Notes under the pieces: generated by a model
What the model saw: only the letters and a program-made list of their open reading frames with translations
What the model was told of the DNA's origin: nothing
The model's database searches: none
Shown: positions 9,586 through 56,131 of the stretch, one piece after another
How the letters are laid out: the number at the start of each line of letters is the position of its first letter
How positions within the stretch are numbered: position 1 is the stretch's first letter
Translations under genes and position numbers: made by a program
From: Halovivax asiaticus JCM 14624
Lineage (GTDB): Archaea; Halobacteriota; Halobacteria; Halobacteriales; Natrialbaceae
Length of the DNA stretch: 64,000 bases
Assembly (NCBI RefSeq): GCF_000337515.1
Contig: NZ_AOIQ01000006.1
Coordinates: 254,265 to 318,264, forward strand
Direction of reading: 5' to 3'

Positions 9586-9966
9586 TCACTCCGGTGGAGA
9601 GACGCCATCAACCGGTGAGACGACGATTTCACCGCTCGCACTGATCGTAACGTCGCACCCTTCGTACGTGAACGAAAGGCGTGCAACTGGTTCGTCGTCC
9701 GTTCCGGAATCTGCCCAGTGAGCAACGAACCGTTCGAGGGCGTCCGGATCGACGACGTCGGTGAGCGGCGCGAGTTCGAGGCGGTCTCGATCCGTCGTTC
9801 GAGCGACGAGCGAGAGAAGGACTGTCAGCACGGGATCGCGCTGGTCGAACGGGATTCGAGCGTAGTACGTCTCGTGGCGCTCGTCCCGGTAGATGGCCGT
9901 CCCATCCACGGTGTCGATACGCCGAGTGTGTCCTCCCCGCTCGTTTCGGACCATCCCACCATACAT
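9586..9966 (-). CDS. HalOD1-domain protein
   Basis: 126 residues from the ATG at 9966; an in-frame start at 9954 is equally possible, and the longer frame upstream runs into an AT-rich promoter. The centre has LTVLLSLVARTTDRDRLELAPLTDVVDPDALERFV and the end FTYEGCDVTISASGEIVVSP, the HalOD1 output-domain layout found only in haloarchaea, often at the end of response regulators. Here it stands alone. Function unknown; presumed protein-protein output module. A second stand-alone copy is at 37366-37677. The upstream 190 bp are AT-rich and carry an inverted Bat-UAS-like element. Confidence 0.8.
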   Translation of the reverse strand: MYGGMVRNERGGHTRRIDTVDGTAIYRDERHETYYARIPFDQRDPVLTVLLSLVARTTDRDRLELAPLTDVVDPDALERFVAHWADSGTDDEPVARLSFTYEGCDVTISASGEIVVSPVDGVSPPE

Positions 9967-10042: not shown

Positions 10043-10057
10043 ACCTCACTAGTTAGT
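10043..10057 (+). promoter_or_regulatory. Bat-UAS-like sequence
   Basis: Reads ACCTCACTAGTTAGT. Compared with the Halobacterium bop-regulon UAS consensus ACCcnactagTTnGG as I recall it, it agrees at 11 of the 13 specified positions. A TATA-like GATATAGC follows at 10060, but no plus-strand gene starts nearby; the divergently placed HalOD1 gene begins about 80 bp away on the other strand. It may be a regulatory site or coincidence. Confidence 0.35.
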
Positions 10058-15499: not shown

Positions 15500-15817
15500 G
15501 CTAGTGGTTGATAGATTCCCGGGGGGATAAAACAATACTGGACTTGCCCCACCGCTGTATTCGTATCCAATTTACAAGCGGAAATCACACGAACGTTCGT
15601 ATCGGAACCACGTGTCGAAGGCCTGCCAGGCCGTGGCCAGCACAGAGTCGAGTGGACGTCCAACTGCCGGGAATCAGCACTAACCGCGGGAAAACAAGGG
15701 TCGACAGCCTCGGACTACACCATCGGAATTAACCGACCTAATATACATTAAACAGCATAAACAATATGGACCTCAATAGGGAGAACCTTTACCAACACCG
15801 ACGGCGCGCTGTCAGAC
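15500..15817. other. 318-bp divergent intergenic region with a 12-bp palindrome
   Basis: Between the methyltransferase and the winged-helix gene. It contains the perfect palindrome ACGAACGTTCGT (15589-15600), an AGGCCTGCCAGGCC inverted repeat near 15620, an AT-rich stretch around 15736-15775 and a TATA-like CCTTTACCA (15786-15794) 28 bp before the winged-helix ATG. No open reading frame is supported. Confidence 0.5.
15525..15533 (-). promoter_or_regulatory. TATA box of the methyltransferase gene
   Basis: Minus strand GTTTTATCC centred 30 bp before GTG 15499. It decides the start choice, because the alternative TTG codon at 15535 lies upstream of this box and would not be transcribed. Confidence 0.55.
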
Positions 15818-49265: not shown

Positions 49266-49364
49266 GGTCCAACCGATTCCTGCTGGCCGAGAACACCACG
49301 AACGTGTTCGCGTTCTCCTACATATGGATTCGCCAGCGGGCTCGATCCATCGGTCCGGACGGGC

Positions 49365-49373
49365 GCTATTTAC
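49365..49373 (+). promoter_or_regulatory. TATA box of the LOV-Bat gene
   Basis: GCTATTTAC centred 27 bp before the ATG at 49396, which supports that start rather than the in-frame ATG at 49324. Confidence 0.55.
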
Positions 49374-49395
49374 GGGTCGAGTACCAGCACCCGCC

Positions 49396-51420
49396 ATGGA
49401 GGACGGAGCGCGACCGACTTACGTCACGTTCTGGGCGGACAGCGCTCGGGACTCGGATCCGGTTCGAGACCACCTGGAGAATACGCCCGACATATCCCTC
49501 ACGACTACCTCCGTCAGAGAAGAAATACCGCCGGATCAGTACGATCGGCTCGACTGTGTGGTATATGCACCCGACTCCCGCTCGAACTGGATCGATCACC
49601 TCGAACAGCTCCGAGAAACGCTACCAGCACTGCCGATCGTGCTCCTCACAGACGACCCCGACGGGGACAGTCTCAGCCGCGCAATTGCGGCCGGCATCGC
49701 CGGGTACGTCGCCCGATCCGCCGACGACGCACCAGCCAGAGTCTACGCCGAGATCGAACGAGTTTCCGCCCCGGATCGTTCGGCGGCCGGCCAACAGACG
49801 CCACGAATGCCACTCGAACAGCTCGACGATCGAGAAGAACGACGCGTCAAAGAACGGGCGATGGACGAGGCCCCGGTTGGGATCGCGATCACCGATCCGG
49901 ATCGGCCCGACAATCCGCTGGTCTACGTCAACGACTCGTTCGAAGCGCTGACCGGCTACAGCCCGTCGGAGACGATCGGACGGAACTGTCGCTTCCTCCA
50001 GGGACCGGAAACAGATCTCGAAGCAATAGCGAAACTCCGGGCCGCAATCGACGCGGCTGAACCGGTCGCCGTCGAGTTGCGGAACTATCGGGCGGACGGC
50101 GAAGTTTTCTGGAACCGTGTCGAGATTGCGCCCGTCACCGAGGACGGACAGGTCACGCACTTCGTCGGCTATCAGACGGACGTGACGGCACGCAAGGAAG
50201 CAGAAATTCGACTCGCGCGCCAACGCGAGACACTCGAAACGGTTCTCGACCGGATCAATGGCCTCCTCAACGACGTGACGAGCGACCTCGTCGAAGCCGA
50301 AGACCGCGACGCCGCCGAACGGGCCGTCTGCGATCGACTCGTCGAAATCGGCGCCTATCAGGCAGCCTGGATCGGGAACCCTGACCTCGCGACCGGCGAG
50401 ATTACGGCTGCGACCGTCTCGACCGACTGGGGGAATCCATCGGACGAAAGTGCTCCCGTAGCGGGCGACGACGACCCGATCGTCGCGGCCGTGACGCGGG
50501 CCGAGGAGACGGGTCGAACGCAACTCGTGACCGGGGCGGCAGCGCTCGACCGAATCGAGGCGGCCGACTGGTACGACGGTGACGGACTCGAAGGGATTGC
50601 CGCTCTCCCACTGTCGAATGGCGAGACGGCGCACGGCGTCCTCTGTGTGTACGCCGGCGAGGAGGGAGCAGTCGCCAACCGGGAAGCGGTCGTCCTCGAA
50701 GCGCTGGCGAGGGCCACGGCGACGACGATAGACGCGATCGAGCGCGGACGACTCCTGCTCGCCGACGAAATCGTCGAACTCGACATCGAGATCACCGATC
50801 CATCGTTCCCGTTCGTCACGCTCGCCGAACGCGCCGGGCCGACGATTTCCTACGACGGAGCCGTCAGTGCGGACCACGGCCGTGTCCGATTGTTTCTCAC
50901 TATCGACGCCGAACCCGCCGCCGTCTCGGCCGCCGTGGACGCCCTGTCGGCCGTCGCCGAGGCGACGCTGATTCACGAATACGACGAGGGCAACCTCTAC
51001 GAACTGGTGATGAGCGAAACCTCGATCGTCGCCGCGCTCGCGGCCCGGGGAGCGACGACGCGATCGATTTCCGCTGCAGACGGGGCGACCCGTCTAACGG
51101 TCGAAATCTCGAGCGATCGCGACGTACGCGAACTCGTCGACGACATACGAGCGCGGTACGACGGCGTCGAACTGCGTGGCCGACGAGACTGCGATCGACC
51201 ACCGACGACCCGGCAAGAGTACCTGGCCGAACTCGAGAACGCGCTGACCGACAGACAACACCTCGCGCTCCGAATCGCCCACGCGAGCGGGTACTACGAG
51301 TGGAACCGATCGGTCTCGGGCGACGAACTCGCGAGCACGATGGGTGTCGCCCGGTCGACGTACCACCAGCACCGACGGGCCGCCGAGCGCAAACTGGTTT
51401 CGGCGTTCCTCGATCGGTAG
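49396..51420 (+). CDS. bat: Bat-like regulator with LOV photosensor, GAF and HTH-10 domains
   Basis: 674 residues from MEDGARPTYVTFWADSARDS. Residues 1-120 resemble a response-regulator receiver fold but no phosphoacceptor aspartate is obvious. Residues about 157-265 form a PAS domain of LOV type: IGRNCRFLQGPETD holds the flavin-adduct cysteine at about 198, and ELRNYRADGEVFWNR and FVGYQTDVT supply the asparagines and glutamine around the flavin. A GAF domain spans about 300-450 and a Bat-specific middle region about 455-610. The C-terminus LTDRQHLALRIAHASGYYEW with STMGVARSTYHQHRRAAERK is the HTH-10 domain. Bat is the activator of bop and brp in Halobacterium. Here it precedes the carotenoid operon and has the chemistry needed for blue-light sensing. 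Confidence 0.9.
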   Translation: MEDGARPTYVTFWADSARDSDPVRDHLENTPDISLTTTSVREEIPPDQYDRLDCVVYAPDSRSNWIDHLEQLRETLPALPIVLLTDDPDGDSLSRAIAAGIAGYVARSADDAPARVYAEIERVSAPDRSAAGQQTPRMPLEQLDDREERRVKERAMDEAPVGIAITDPDRPDNPLVYVNDSFEALTGYSPSETIGRNCRFLQGPETDLEAIAKLRAAIDAAEPVAVELRNYRADGEVFWNRVEIAPVTEDGQVTHFVGYQTDVTARKEAEIRLARQRETLETVLDRINGLLNDVTSDLVEAEDRDAAERAVCDRLVEIGAYQAAWIGNPDLATGEITAATVSTDWGNPSDESAPVAGDDDPIVAAVTRAEETGRTQLVTGAAALDRIEAADWYDGDGLEGIAALPLSNGETAHGVLCVYAGEEGAVANREAVVLEALARATATTIDAIERGRLLLADEIVELDIEITDPSFPFVTLAERAGPTISYDGAVSADHGRVRLFLTIDAEPAAVSAAVDALSAVAEATLIHEYDEGNLYELVMSETSIVAALAARGATTRSISAADGATRLTVEISSDRDVRELVDDIRARYDGVELRGRRDCDRPPTTRQEYLAELENALTDRQHLALRIAHASGYYEWNRSVSGDELASTMGVARSTYHQHRRAAERKLVSAFLDR

Positions 51421-51519
51421 CGTCACGTCGAACCCGACGTCGACGCGACTTACGACGACAGTCCGGACCGGCGGACCGGATCGAGCGTCCCAACAGTCTT
51501 CGCGGTAAGACACTCACTG

Positions 51520-51529
51520 ACTAGTTAGG
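51520..51529 (+). promoter_or_regulatory. Bat-UAS-like core element upstream of crtB
   Basis: ACTAGTTAGG matches the core of the bop-regulon UAS consensus (actagTTnGG) exactly as I recall it; the ACCcn part of the consensus is not conserved (CACTG). It lies directly upstream of a TATA box, at about the spacing seen in the bop promoter. This is the candidate site through which the adjacent Bat-like protein would control the operon. Confidence 0.55.
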
Positions 51530-51537
51530 TACACCCC

Positions 51538-51546
51538 TGTTTATCC
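51538..51546 (+). promoter_or_regulatory. TATA box of the crtB-crtD-lyeJ-cruF operon
   Basis: TGTTTATCC centred 48 bp before the crtB ATG, predicting a leader of about 20 nt. A GGGG-caata-CCCC hairpin (51567-51579) falls in or at the start of this leader. Confidence 0.5.
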
Positions 51547-51589
51547 CGCGGGCCGTGGTACGTCGTGGGGCAATACCCCGCGTATCCGC

Positions 51590-52699
51590 ATGATCGACGC
51601 CGAAAACCTAGAGCGAAGCAAGGCCATCCAGCAACGGACCGGACGGACGTTCCACCTCGCGACGCGCCTGCTCCCCGAGCGGATCAGGCACGCGACGTAC
51701 GTCCTGTACGCGTTCTTCCGCATCGCGGACGACGTGGTGGACGACCCGGATCCGCCGCCAGCCGAGCGACAGCTCGCCGAACTCGAGCGAATTCGCGAGA
51801 GCGCACTCGGCACGCGCCAGACGAACGATCCCGTCCTGGAGGCGTTCCTGACGGTCCGTGACCGGTACGACATTCCCGACCAGGAGATCGACGAGTTCGT
51901 CGACGCGATGGCGCGTGACGTCTCGACCGACCGGTACGAGACGCACGACGAACTGGCGGGCTACCTCAGGGGATCTTCCGTCGCCGTGGCGAACATGATG
52001 CTGTGCGTGATGGATCCGGACGACAGTGAGGCGGCCCGCCCACACGCGAAAGCACTTGCCGAGGCCCTGCAGTTGACCAACTTTCTCCGGGACGTCCGCG
52101 AGGACGTCTGCGAGTACGATCGGATCTACCTTCCGCGTGCGCGCCGCGAGGCATTCGGCGTCAGCGAGACGCAGATTGTCAACCTGGAGAGTTCTCCCGA
52201 GTTCGAGGCGCTGATCCGGGACGAACTGGCCCGAACGGAACGGCGTTACGAGACCGGGGTCGATGGGATCACCTACCTCCCGGAGGGGTGCCAGTTCGCC
52301 GTACTACTGGCCGCCGTGCTCTACGCGGATCACCATCGAGCGATCCGTGCGCAGGGGTGTGACGTCCTCTCCGAACGGCCCTCACTCAGCATGCCGCGCC
52401 GACTGTTCCTCGCGGCGAAGACCTGGTGGCACTGGCGACGTACCGACGACCCTCGCACCGCGTTCGACGCGGCGAGTTCGATACCAACCCGTGACGGGGG
52501 AGACCGGCCGATAGCATCCGAATACCGCTCCGCAGCTGCTGGTCCGAACGAAACCGACCAGCCACCCCGGTCCACTGACGTGCGCCGACGCGACGAACGA
52601 ACACCCCGGTCCACCGCCGACAATTCCCTGGGTCGACCGACGGTGCGACGGGTCGTTTCGCGTGTACGCGCAGCGATTTTCCCGGGGGAGTCCAAATGA
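51590..52699 (+). CDS. crtB: Phytoene synthase
   Basis: 369 residues. The two aspartate-rich motifs are YAFFRIADDVVDDPD and LTNFLRDVREDVCEYDRIYLP, exactly the DxxxD pattern of phytoene synthases. It condenses two geranylgeranyl diphosphates head-to-head into phytoene, the first committed step to carotenoids. From about residue 300 to the end there is a polar, low-complexity, Arg/Ser/Thr/Pro-rich extension (SSIPTRDGGDRPIASEYRSA) not needed for catalysis. It overlaps crtD by 4 bp (ATGA), so the genes are translationally coupled. It differs from the squalene synthase-like protein at 5.7 kb. Confidence 0.95.
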   Translation: MIDAENLERSKAIQQRTGRTFHLATRLLPERIRHATYVLYAFFRIADDVVDDPDPPPAERQLAELERIRESALGTRQTNDPVLEAFLTVRDRYDIPDQEIDEFVDAMARDVSTDRYETHDELAGYLRGSSVAVANMMLCVMDPDDSEAARPHAKALAEALQLTNFLRDVREDVCEYDRIYLPRARREAFGVSETQIVNLESSPEFEALIRDELARTERRYETGVDGITYLPEGCQFAVLLAAVLYADHHRAIRAQGCDVLSERPSLSMPRRLFLAAKTWWHWRRTDDPRTAFDAASSIPTRDGGDRPIASEYRSAAAGPNETDQPPRSTDVRRRDERTPRSTADNSLGRPTVRRVVSRVRAAIFPGESK

Positions 52700-54207
52700 C
52701 CGCACCGACCAGCGTGCAAGATCGGTCGGTCTGCGTGGTCGGCGGCGGATTCGGTGGGCTGGCGACGGCGTGTTACCTGGCCGACGCCGGCTTCGACATG
52801 ACGGTCGTCGAGAAGACCGACCAACTCGGGGGTCGTGCGAGCACACTCGAACGAGACGGCTTCACGTTCGACATGGGACCGTCGTGGTACCTCATGCCCG
52901 ACGTGTTCGAGCGATTCTTCGCGGCGTTCGACCGGACGCCGACGGACTACTACGACCTGACGCACCTGAACCCACACTACCGCATCTTCTGGAAGGATGG
53001 CGAGCGGATGGACGTCACCGAAGACATCGACGCGACGAAACGCACGTTCGAACGGTACGAGACGGGTGCCGGGGACGCGCTCGAACGATACCTCGCGAAG
53101 GCGGCCGAGACGTACGAGATCGGGATGGAACACTTCGTCTACACGGACCGGCCGCGGTTCCGGGACTACGTCGACGTGGACGTTCTCCGAAACGCGAACG
53201 GGCTCTCCTTCCTCGGGTCCATGGAGGACCACGTCGCCGAGTACTTCGAACACCCGAAACTCAGACAGGTCGTCCAGTACTCGCTGGTCTTCCTCGGCGG
53301 CAGTCCGACGAACACGCCGGCGCTGTACAACCTCATGAGCCACGTCGACTTCGGCCTCGGCGTTCACTATCCGGACGGCGGCATGGGCGCCGTCGTCGAC
53401 GCGCTCGTCGAACTCGGCACGGAGCTGGGGGTCGACTACCGGACCGGCTTCGAAGTGAGTGCCATCGACGGCGGCCGCGGTTCCTTCACCGTCCACGACC
53501 ATGCCGACTCGATCGAGGCCGACCTCGTGGTGAGCGACGCCGATTATGCACACACGGAACAGCAACTTCTCGCGGTCGACGACCGCCAGTACGACGCCGA
53601 GTACTGGCACGAACGAACGTACGCTCCGTCGGCGTTCCTCTGTTATCTGGGCGTCGAAGGCGACCTCGACGAGTTAGCCCACCACTCGCTCGTCCTCCCG
53701 ACGGCCTGGGACGGCCACTTCCAACAGATCTTCGACCAGCCGGCGTGGCCGGACGATCCTGCCTACTACCTGTGTGCACCCTCGAAAACCGATGACACCG
53801 TCGCCCCGGACGGCCACAGCAGCTGCTTCCTCCTCGTTCCCATCGCACCCGGGCTCCCCGATGGACCGGCCGTTCGCGACAGATATCGCGACCAGATTCT
53901 CGCGGACGTCGCGGCAAACACGGGCGAAGATCTCAGGGACCGGATCGTCGTCGAGGAGACGTTTTCCGTCTCGGACTTCGCCACCCGGTACAACAGCCGT
54001 GAAGGGACGGCACTCGGCCTCGCCCACACGCTCCGGCAGACGGGACCGCTCCGTCCTGGGCATCGCTCCAGCGCGCTCGACGGTCTCTACTTCACCGGCT
54101 CGTACACGACGCCGGGGATCGGGGTACCGATGTGTCTCATCAGCGGCGAGCACACGGCTGCCGCGGTCATTGAAGACGAACGCGCTCGAAACCCCCACGT
54201 CGTATGA
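52696..54207 (+). CDS. crtD: Carotenoid desaturase (CrtD/CrtI type)
   Basis: 503 residues. VGGGFGGLATACYLADAG is the FAD Rossmann motif, followed by VVEKTDQLGGRASTLERDGF, and LDGLYFTGSYTTPGIGVPMCLISGEH near the C-terminus is the family's second FAD contact. Both phytoene desaturase (CrtI) and carotenoid 3,4-desaturase (CrtD) share this architecture. In Haloarcula japonica the order crtD-lyeJ-cruF encodes bacterioruberin synthesis, and the same order is found here, so CrtD is the better guess; a bifunctional CrtI role cannot be excluded. It overlaps both neighbours by 4 bp. Confidence 0.9.
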   Translation: MTAPTSVQDRSVCVVGGGFGGLATACYLADAGFDMTVVEKTDQLGGRASTLERDGFTFDMGPSWYLMPDVFERFFAAFDRTPTDYYDLTHLNPHYRIFWKDGERMDVTEDIDATKRTFERYETGAGDALERYLAKAAETYEIGMEHFVYTDRPRFRDYVDVDVLRNANGLSFLGSMEDHVAEYFEHPKLRQVVQYSLVFLGGSPTNTPALYNLMSHVDFGLGVHYPDGGMGAVVDALVELGTELGVDYRTGFEVSAIDGGRGSFTVHDHADSIEADLVVSDADYAHTEQQLLAVDDRQYDAEYWHERTYAPSAFLCYLGVEGDLDELAHHSLVLPTAWDGHFQQIFDQPAWPDDPAYYLCAPSKTDDTVAPDGHSSCFLLVPIAPGLPDGPAVRDRYRDQILADVAANTGEDLRDRIVVEETFSVSDFATRYNSREGTALGLAHTLRQTGPLRPGHRSSALDGLYFTGSYTTPGIGVPMCLISGEHTAAAVIEDERARNPHVV

Positions 54208-55040
54208 ATCGCGTCCGCCGATTGCTCACGCGATCCCGACCGCTGTTCTGGCTCTACCTGGCTGGACCAGCGCTCGTCGGGGCGGTGTACGCAGCAGACT
54301 CGCCATCGACGCTCACGTCACCCGTCGTGATCGGGATCGTCTGCTACTTCCTGCTACCGGCGAACCTCTTCCTCTACGGCGTCAACGACGTCTTCGACGC
54401 CGACGTCGACGCCGAGAACCCCAAGAAGGAGGGGATCGAGACGCGCTACGAGGGCGAACGACTCACGATCGTCGCGGTCGTCGCCAGTGCCATCGTCGGG
54501 TTCGCACTGGTTCCCGTCCTCTCACCGCCGGCGACGTACTACCTCGGTGGGTTCCTCTTCCTCGGTGCAGCCTACAGCGTCCCACCGATTCGATTCAAGA
54601 CCAGACCGCTGCTCGACTCGGTCTCGAACGGCCTATACGTGCTCCCCGCTGGCGTCACCTACGCCACCATCGCTGGTACGCACCCGCCAGCACTCGCGGT
54701 CCTCGGTGGCTGGTTCTGGGCGATGGGCATGCACACGTTCTCGGCGATCCCGGACATCGATCCCGACCGCCAAGCCGGGATCCGGACGACGGCGACCGTC
54801 CTCGGCCAGCCTGCAGCCCTCGGCTACTGCGTTGCGTGCTGGGCGCTCGCTGCGGTAACGTTCGGATTCCTGGACGTCCGAATCGGGGCGCTCCTGCTCG
54901 TCTACCCGCTCATCGTCGGCGCCATCGCCACGGCGAGCGTGACCGTCTCGCGCGCGTACTGGTGGTTCCCGGCGGTCAACTCGACCGTCGGGATGGTCCT
55001 GACCCTGGGCGGTCTCTGGCGGGTGGTCTATGGATCGTAA
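54204..55040 (+). CDS. lyeJ: Lycopene elongase/1,2-hydratase (UbiA-family prenyltransferase)
   Basis: 278 residues with eight to nine membrane helices. The UbiA-type motif LYGVNDVFDADVDAENPKK (NDxxDxxxD) binds the diphosphate, and SAIPDIDPDRQAGIRT is the second aspartate motif. In haloarchaea the product of this gene attaches C5 (dimethylallyl) units and water to lycopene, giving the C50 skeleton. Synteny with crtD and cruF makes this identification strong. It starts in the ATGA overlap of crtD and overlaps cruF by 11 bp. Confidence 0.92.
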   Translation: MNRVRRLLTRSRPLFWLYLAGPALVGAVYAADSPSTLTSPVVIGIVCYFLLPANLFLYGVNDVFDADVDAENPKKEGIETRYEGERLTIVAVVASAIVGFALVPVLSPPATYYLGGFLFLGAAYSVPPIRFKTRPLLDSVSNGLYVLPAGVTYATIAGTHPPALAVLGGWFWAMGMHTFSAIPDIDPDRQAGIRTTATVLGQPAALGYCVACWALAAVTFGFLDVRIGALLLVYPLIVGAIATASVTVSRAYWWFPAVNSTVGMVLTLGGLWRVVYGS

Positions 55041-55869
55041 CCGCCGGTCACAAACCGAGCGCCTGGATCGGTTCGTCCGCGACAACCGGGTGACGATCGC
55101 CGTCGTCTTCCCCCTCGTCGGGGCGGCCCTGCTCGTCGCCAGCGCGGAGGGATTGCTGTGGGACCCGCTCGCGTTCAACCCCTTTCTCGTCCTCGTCGGT
55201 ACCGCCGTCATGCGACTGCCGCTCATCGCAGGGCTTCTCCCGGTCGTAGACAGGCGTCTCGTCGGCGTCCTCATCGCGTTGACTGGCTACACCTACGCGA
55301 TCGAGTACGTCGGGCTGACCACCGGCTGGCCCTATGGGGAGTTTCAGTACACCGTGGCGCTCGGGCCGATGCTGGGTGGCGTCCCACTCGCGCTGCCCCT
55401 GTTCTTCCTCCCGCTCGTCCTGAACGCCACGTTACTCTCGACGCTCCTGACGGACTCGGAAACGACCAACTGGCCGGTCCGGGTCGTCGGGGCCGTCCTC
55501 GCCGTCATCACCATCGACCTCGTCCTCGATCCGGCCGCCGTCTCGATCGGCTTCTGGGCGTACGACGGCGCCGGCCCGTACTACGGCGTGCCACTCTCGA
55601 ACTATCTCGGCTGGCTCCTGAGCGGGACGATCGCCGTCGTCGCACTCGAATACGGACTCCGGACCGACCAGCTCCGGACGCGCCTGCGATCGTGTGAGTT
55701 CGCCCTCGACGACCTCGTCAGCTTCGTCGTGCTCTGGGGTGGTATCAACGCACTCTACGGCAACTGGATCCCCGTCAGTCTCGCGGGCGCCCTCGTCGGC
55801 GCGCTTCTCTGGACCGGCCGAATCGATCTCACGACCGACAGCCATCGACTCCCGACTGGCAACCGATAA
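55030..55869 (+). CDS. cruF: Bisanhydrobacterioruberin hydratase (CruF)
   Basis: 279 residues, an integral membrane protein with about eight helices: TIAVVFPLVGAALLVASAE, LVGTAVMRLPLIAGLLPVV, and later LGWLLSGTIAVVALEYGL. The family (DUF422) is the C50 carotenoid 2'',3''-hydratase, which adds the terminal hydroxyl groups of bacterioruberin. GYTYAIEYVGLTTGWPYGEFQYTV and SIGFWAYDGAGPYYGVPLSNYLGW are the conserved blocks. It begins inside the end of lyeJ, the fourth gene of a translationally coupled operon, and no further gene follows on this strand before the tRNA. Confidence 0.93.
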   Translation: MDRNRRSQTERLDRFVRDNRVTIAVVFPLVGAALLVASAEGLLWDPLAFNPFLVLVGTAVMRLPLIAGLLPVVDRRLVGVLIALTGYTYAIEYVGLTTGWPYGEFQYTVALGPMLGGVPLALPLFFLPLVLNATLLSTLLTDSETTNWPVRVVGAVLAVITIDLVLDPAAVSIGFWAYDGAGPYYGVPLSNYLGWLLSGTIAVVALEYGLRTDQLRTRLRSCEFALDDLVSFVVLWGGINALYGNWIPVSLAGALVGALLWTGRIDLTTDSHRLPTGNR

Positions 55870-56131
55870 TCGGGCCGATCGACATCGGGACGCCGACGGA
55901 AGTCCACTCGAATTCCACTAGTGTGGATTACTAACTTCGTCCGTCACGGAACGCACACGGATGTAAGGGCCGTCGGTCACGAGATCGTTCGTCAGCAAGA
56001 AATGGGCCAACTCGGATTTGAACCGAAATCAGACGTGCTCGCTCACTTCGTTCGCTGTGCGCGACTGATAGGGCTCAAATCCTCGTTCGATCCACCACCT
56101 GTGGCTCGCGTCTTTGCTCGCCGCAAAATGA
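55870..56131. other. 262-bp gap containing a partial tRNA-Ile copy
   Basis: Lies between cruF and tRNA-Ile. It contains the tRNA 3' fragment copy at 56002-56026 and TCGCTCACTTCGTTCGC-like palindromic sequence (near 56040), but no gene. It looks like the scar of a mobile element that once used tRNA-Ile as its target. Confidence 0.5.
56002..56026 (-). repeat. Duplicated 3' end of tRNA-Ile (possible attachment-site remnant)
   Basis: 25 nt identical to 56131-56155, which covers the 3' acceptor strand, discriminator and T-arm/loop region of the intact tRNA-Ile. Integrases of the SSV/pNOB type commonly leave such tRNA 3' duplications. No integrase gene was found between or near the copies, so this would be an old scar. 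Confidence 0.6.

Follow-up and report, generated by a model that had tools for sequence, protein, structure and literature searches.

A predicted Bat-type UAS in front of the bacterioruberin operon of Halovivax asiaticus, beside a gene for a LOV-containing Bat regulator

The window analysed here, a 64,000-nucleotide stretch of the Halovivax asiaticus JCM 14624 genome, encodes a carotenoid operon on the forward strand (51590-55869), which the first-pass annotation had correctly placed downstream of a candidate regulatory site. Its first gene is a phytoene synthase (crtB; 51590-52699), followed by a bifunctional phytoene desaturase/3,4-desaturase (crtID; 52696-54207; NF058655, over the cut-off), a lyeJ-type UbiA prenyltransferase (lycopene elongase; 54204-55040) and a bisanhydrobacterioruberin hydratase (cruF; 55030-55869; NF041333, over the cut-off), all on the forward strand. 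The genes crtB-crtID-lyeJ-cruF make up the full bacterioruberin set. No opsin (PF01036) was detected in the genome by a search that was positive in 280 of the 391 genomes of the class, and no Brp/Blh (PF15461) by a search that was positive in two Halobacterium genomes. The assembly, in 24 contigs, reaches 99.3% completeness; a gap may exist but would be unlikely to conceal both genes. Since neither gene was found, a regulatory circuit at this locus is unlikely to serve bacteriorhodopsin in H. asiaticus; it would serve C50 carotenoids. Brp/Blh was found in none of five genomes of the genus, though three of them have an opsin.

Directly upstream of crtB, a gene on the same strand (49324-51420) encodes a Bat-type regulator of 698 amino acids. 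The protein contains a LOV-type PAS domain (about residues 177-290, with GRNCRFLQG), a GAF domain, a BAT domain and HTH_10, and thus has the architecture of the Bat family. The PAS domain matches LOV photoreceptors (best solved-structure match, E 6e-35) and holds the LOV signature GXNCRFLQ with the adduct-forming cysteine. With these markings, the protein is a predicted blue-light sensor. The cysteine is also kept in Bats encoded beside crtB in the related species G100 and G043, in G035, G351 and G236, in Halarchaeum and on a Halorussus plasmid. The Halobacterium Bat examined reads GANHRFLQG, with histidine in place of the photoactive cysteine, and a different PAS was found in the Natrialbaceae and Haloarcula types as well as in two species of the same genus (G207 and G361). 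The recognition helix of the HTH is conserved throughout the Bats compared. Because the PAS types vary while the DNA-binding helix is conserved, sensor domains appear to have been exchanged between lineages with the DNA site kept.

The first-pass annotation had read ACTAGTTAGG at 51520-51529 as the core of a Bat UAS. We found the core at exactly these coordinates, in the intergenic region between the bat-type gene and the crtB operon. The predicted UAS, CACTGACTAGTTAGGT, spans 51515-51530 on the forward strand, with an intact TATA-proximal half (AGTTAGGT) and a decayed distal half. Scored against ACCNNACTAGTTNGG, which we take to be the Bat-UAS consensus, the site (CACtgACTAGTTaGG) matches 10 of the 12 specified bases. 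The ACTAG-TT-GG core is present with its TATA-proximal GG half. The ACC half had been described as not conserved, and indeed only its last C is kept, two of the three bases being lost. The site lies just 5′ of a TATA-like box, TTTATC (51540-51545, forward strand), which starts 10 bases past the GG. A TATA element had been placed after about nine bases; the element, TGTTTATCC, does follow (51538-51546), and eight bases separate it from the GG. A second block, GCCGTGGTACGT (51552-51563, forward strand), is invariant across three species and may represent the promoter-proximal or initiator region, with a transcription start predicted at about 51566-51570 and the crtB ATG at 51590. In the crtB 5′ leader, GGGGCAATACCCC (51567-51579) could form a hairpin; its counterpart at the same place in G043 is GGGGCAACTGCCCC.

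For comparison, we collected 230 haloarchaeal crtB loci, of which 148 remained after near-identical ones were removed. A bat gene lies directly upstream (bat end less than 450 bases upstream of crtB, on the same strand) in 42 of these 148 loci, and this synteny recurs across families. A de novo ZOOPS motif search was performed on 40 bat-adjacent promoters, leaving out the window and G043 sequences; those of the more distant congeners G207 and G361 were kept in training (sites TTACCAGTAAGG and AGCTAGTAAGG). An initial 16-bp run locked onto the GG/TATA part, and a 30-bp run was used instead. The resulting motif, aCCnnACTAGTgaGGgAtagntnTTTTAta (also rendered aCCnnACTAGTgaGG-n8-TTTTATA or aCCnnACTAGTgaGGg...TTTTATA), recovered the window site at the position given by the first-pass annotation, with 12.97 bits (5,000 shuffles: mean -5.4, maximum 14.3). 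Most haloarchaeal bat-crtB loci, drawn from several families, have the same element 7-10 bases away from a TATA-like box, yet no motif was found in this search at L006 and L139, where bat is adjacent. In a training-free count, matches to the literal UAS at 9 or more of its 12 bases were present in 33 of the 42 bat-adjacent loci versus 25 of the 106 others and in 8% of shuffles (Fisher’s exact test: p = 1e-9, indicative only, because related sequences are not independent). The roughly one quarter of loci without an adjacent bat that reach this threshold count against a Bat UAS. So do the two lost ACC bases and the two bat-adjacent loci without a motif. Between the GG and the TATA-like box lie 9 bases in most bat-crtB loci and 7 or 10 in the rest, a clustering that counts for a Bat UAS; the window and G043 have 10, off the modal value, and for the window site this counts against it. 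A natural comparison is provided by a Salinarchaeum MAG (L061), in which crtB is convergent with crtI-lyeJ-cruF and both bat and the UAS are absent; we count this locus in favour of a Bat-type UAS.

The UAS is dyad-symmetric (CC-nn-ACT|AGT-nn-GG), with 61% of mirrored cells complementary versus at most 39% for slid centres, as counted on sites picked by the matrix. Covariation between the half-sites was weak, with a single pair at an uncorrected p of about 0.01. This symmetry bears on the idea that the block belongs to the basal promoter, as BRE/TATA context kept for TFB/TBP recognition, with no regulator site in it. Such an origin would fit the closeness to the TATA box, the nearly fixed spacing and the joint recovery of GG and TTTATA in the first de novo run. 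However, the element reaches 20-25 bases beyond the TATA box on its upstream side, and crtB promoters that lack bat have it far less often; together with the dyad, these features make a purely basal role improbable. Other bat-crtB loci, for example L029 and those with ACATAGTGAGG-type sites, likewise have a degraded distal ACC half. Therefore, this half may not necessarily define a Bat UAS, and its recurrent decay suggests that the TATA-proximal half probably carries the main contact.

The site is rare in both the window and the genome. CTAG had been noted as scarce, and it is depleted about three-fold in the window, with 24 occurrences against 76 expected from dinucleotide shuffles. A genome scan with UAS strings, proposed as a check by the first-pass annotation, found ACTAGTTNGG as a single copy in the 3,238,452 bases, namely the window copy, and the looser ACTAGTNNGG 12 times. 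The uniqueness of ACTAGTTNGG counts for a Bat-type UAS; the string was not found in print in the literature searched. With the 30-bp UAS+TATA matrix, the window site ranked first among 127,942 window positions (12.97 versus 12.78 bits). The margin is narrow and the matrix by itself is therefore not very specific; a non-CTAG site at 15785 on the reverse strand, with a nearly equal score, counts against the Bat-UAS assignment. The 16-bp UAS part of the matrix gave p = 0.0004 when the upstream region was shuffled 5,000 times. In G100 and G043, the longest conserved intergenic block shared with the window is ACTAGTTAGGTACACnCCTGTTTATC, followed by GCCGTGGTACGT, while the flanks diverge; this conservation across three species also counts for a Bat-type UAS. 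One could still suspect a chance match within an AT-richer intergenic region, given that the ten-base core is short on its own, the distal half is not conserved and one near-equal matrix match exists elsewhere in the window. Coincidence is nevertheless very hard to reconcile with a single-copy sequence that is retained in two related species amid diverging flanks, recurs in unrelated bat-crtB loci and reaches p = 0.0004 in its upstream region.

Several other candidate sites were considered and set aside. ACTAGTGAGG at 10044-10053 (reverse strand) is absent from other genomes of the genus and was taken as chance; it lies 5′ of a short reading frame (start near 9966, reverse strand) that matches the DdfA family below threshold. 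ACTAGTGTGG at 55917 is directly past cruF and before a tRNA-Ile gene, and no gene is placed to use such a site. The other genomic ACTAGTNNGG sites (L275-L282) mostly had low matrix scores; the best of them (L277, 14.8 bits) is a weak candidate, with a possible gene for an HTH regulator some 300 bases away. No UAS above the matrix threshold was found before bat itself.

The crtB-derived matrix also bears on the bop regulon. Its UAS part had its best match at ACCTGACTAGGTTGG-type sites before Halorubrum-type opsins, 110-116 bases ahead of the opsin domain match, and at ACCATACTGATTGGG before the opsin gene in a Halobacterium genome; over both groups the sites lie at -110 to -117, and the lineage labels are inferred from named loci. 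The matrix was poor at detecting the ACC-ATATATTTT-GGG sites of Haloarcula-like opsins. The first-pass identification of a Bat-type UAS thus finds sequence-level support in the bat-crtB conservation, the spacing and the match of the crtB matrix to bop-promoter UASs. We conclude that the element is probably a working Bat-type UAS that would drive the promoter of the complete bacterioruberin operon.

With less confidence, we take the adjacent Bat as the likely binder of the UAS and light as the likely signal. The genome encodes 25 BAT-domain proteins, and the cognate binder among them is therefore not certain. The adjacent Bat has the top score of the 25, and this, with the conserved recognition helix, counts in its favour. 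A true regulatory site might instead be recognised by another factor, either a BAT/HTH_10 paralogue or a zinc-finger protein resembling Brz, perhaps acting jointly with Bat. Besides the number of paralogues, the UAS at some crtB genes without an adjacent bat and the dependence of bop and crtB1 mRNA on Brz in Halobacterium (PMC2253796) would fit such a binder. We consider it rather unlikely, given that the presence of the UAS is strongly tied to an adjacent bat and that bat-crtB synteny recurs across families. For the adjacent LOV-GAF-BAT-HTH_10 protein, the most likely course is that a dimer of it would bind the UAS and contact mainly AGTTAGG, the intact half-site next to the TATA box. Bound Bat would then sit beside the TBP/TFB platform at TTTATC and may activate crtB-crtID-lyeJ-cruF upon blue light and/or in response to redox state (low oxygen).

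Bat-UAS control has been discussed mainly with bacteriorhodopsin. Here its predicted target is the synthesis of photoprotective C50 carotenoids, and rhodopsin was not detected in the genome. For haloarchaea, this offers a simple link from light to pigment that can be tested, and regulon searches gain a clear UAS consensus. Tentatively, LOV-Bat and the UAS may form a self-contained photoprotection circuit leading from light to bacterioruberin without any rhodopsin. The bat-crtB-UAS arrangement might then be a widespread, perhaps older, use of Bat in which the sensor was swapped between lineages and the DNA site kept, the purple-membrane regulon being a special case.

Published work on Halobacterium reports that Bat acts through the UAS to co-regulate bop, brp, bat and crtB1 (PMC1502140, PMC1447603, PMC1885257). 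The UAS was described as the sole cis-regulatory motif experimentally verified in Halobacterium at that time (PMC1502140). The window system shares with that regulon the ACTAG..TT-GG core 5′ of a TATA box, a Bat-type regulator and a crtB-type target. It differs in its target, a C50 carotenoid operon of four genes with bat directly upstream of crtB, in the decayed distal ACC half of the UAS, and in a LOV domain with cysteine where the Halobacterium Bat examined has histidine. Opsin and Brp/Blh, hence the targets bop and brp, were not found in this genome; the system resembles the bop regulon in the way it would operate without being one itself. With the bat-crtB promoters of Natrialbaceae, Haloarcula and Halarchaeum relatives, it has in common the gene order, the UAS and a similar spacing to TTTATA. 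Unlike the window, those promoters usually have an intact distal ACC half, and most of the Bats examined at those loci carry another PAS without the LOV signature. Because Bat-UAS control of crtB1 is already known in Halobacterium, the window system represents a variant form of an established regulon and regulatory element.
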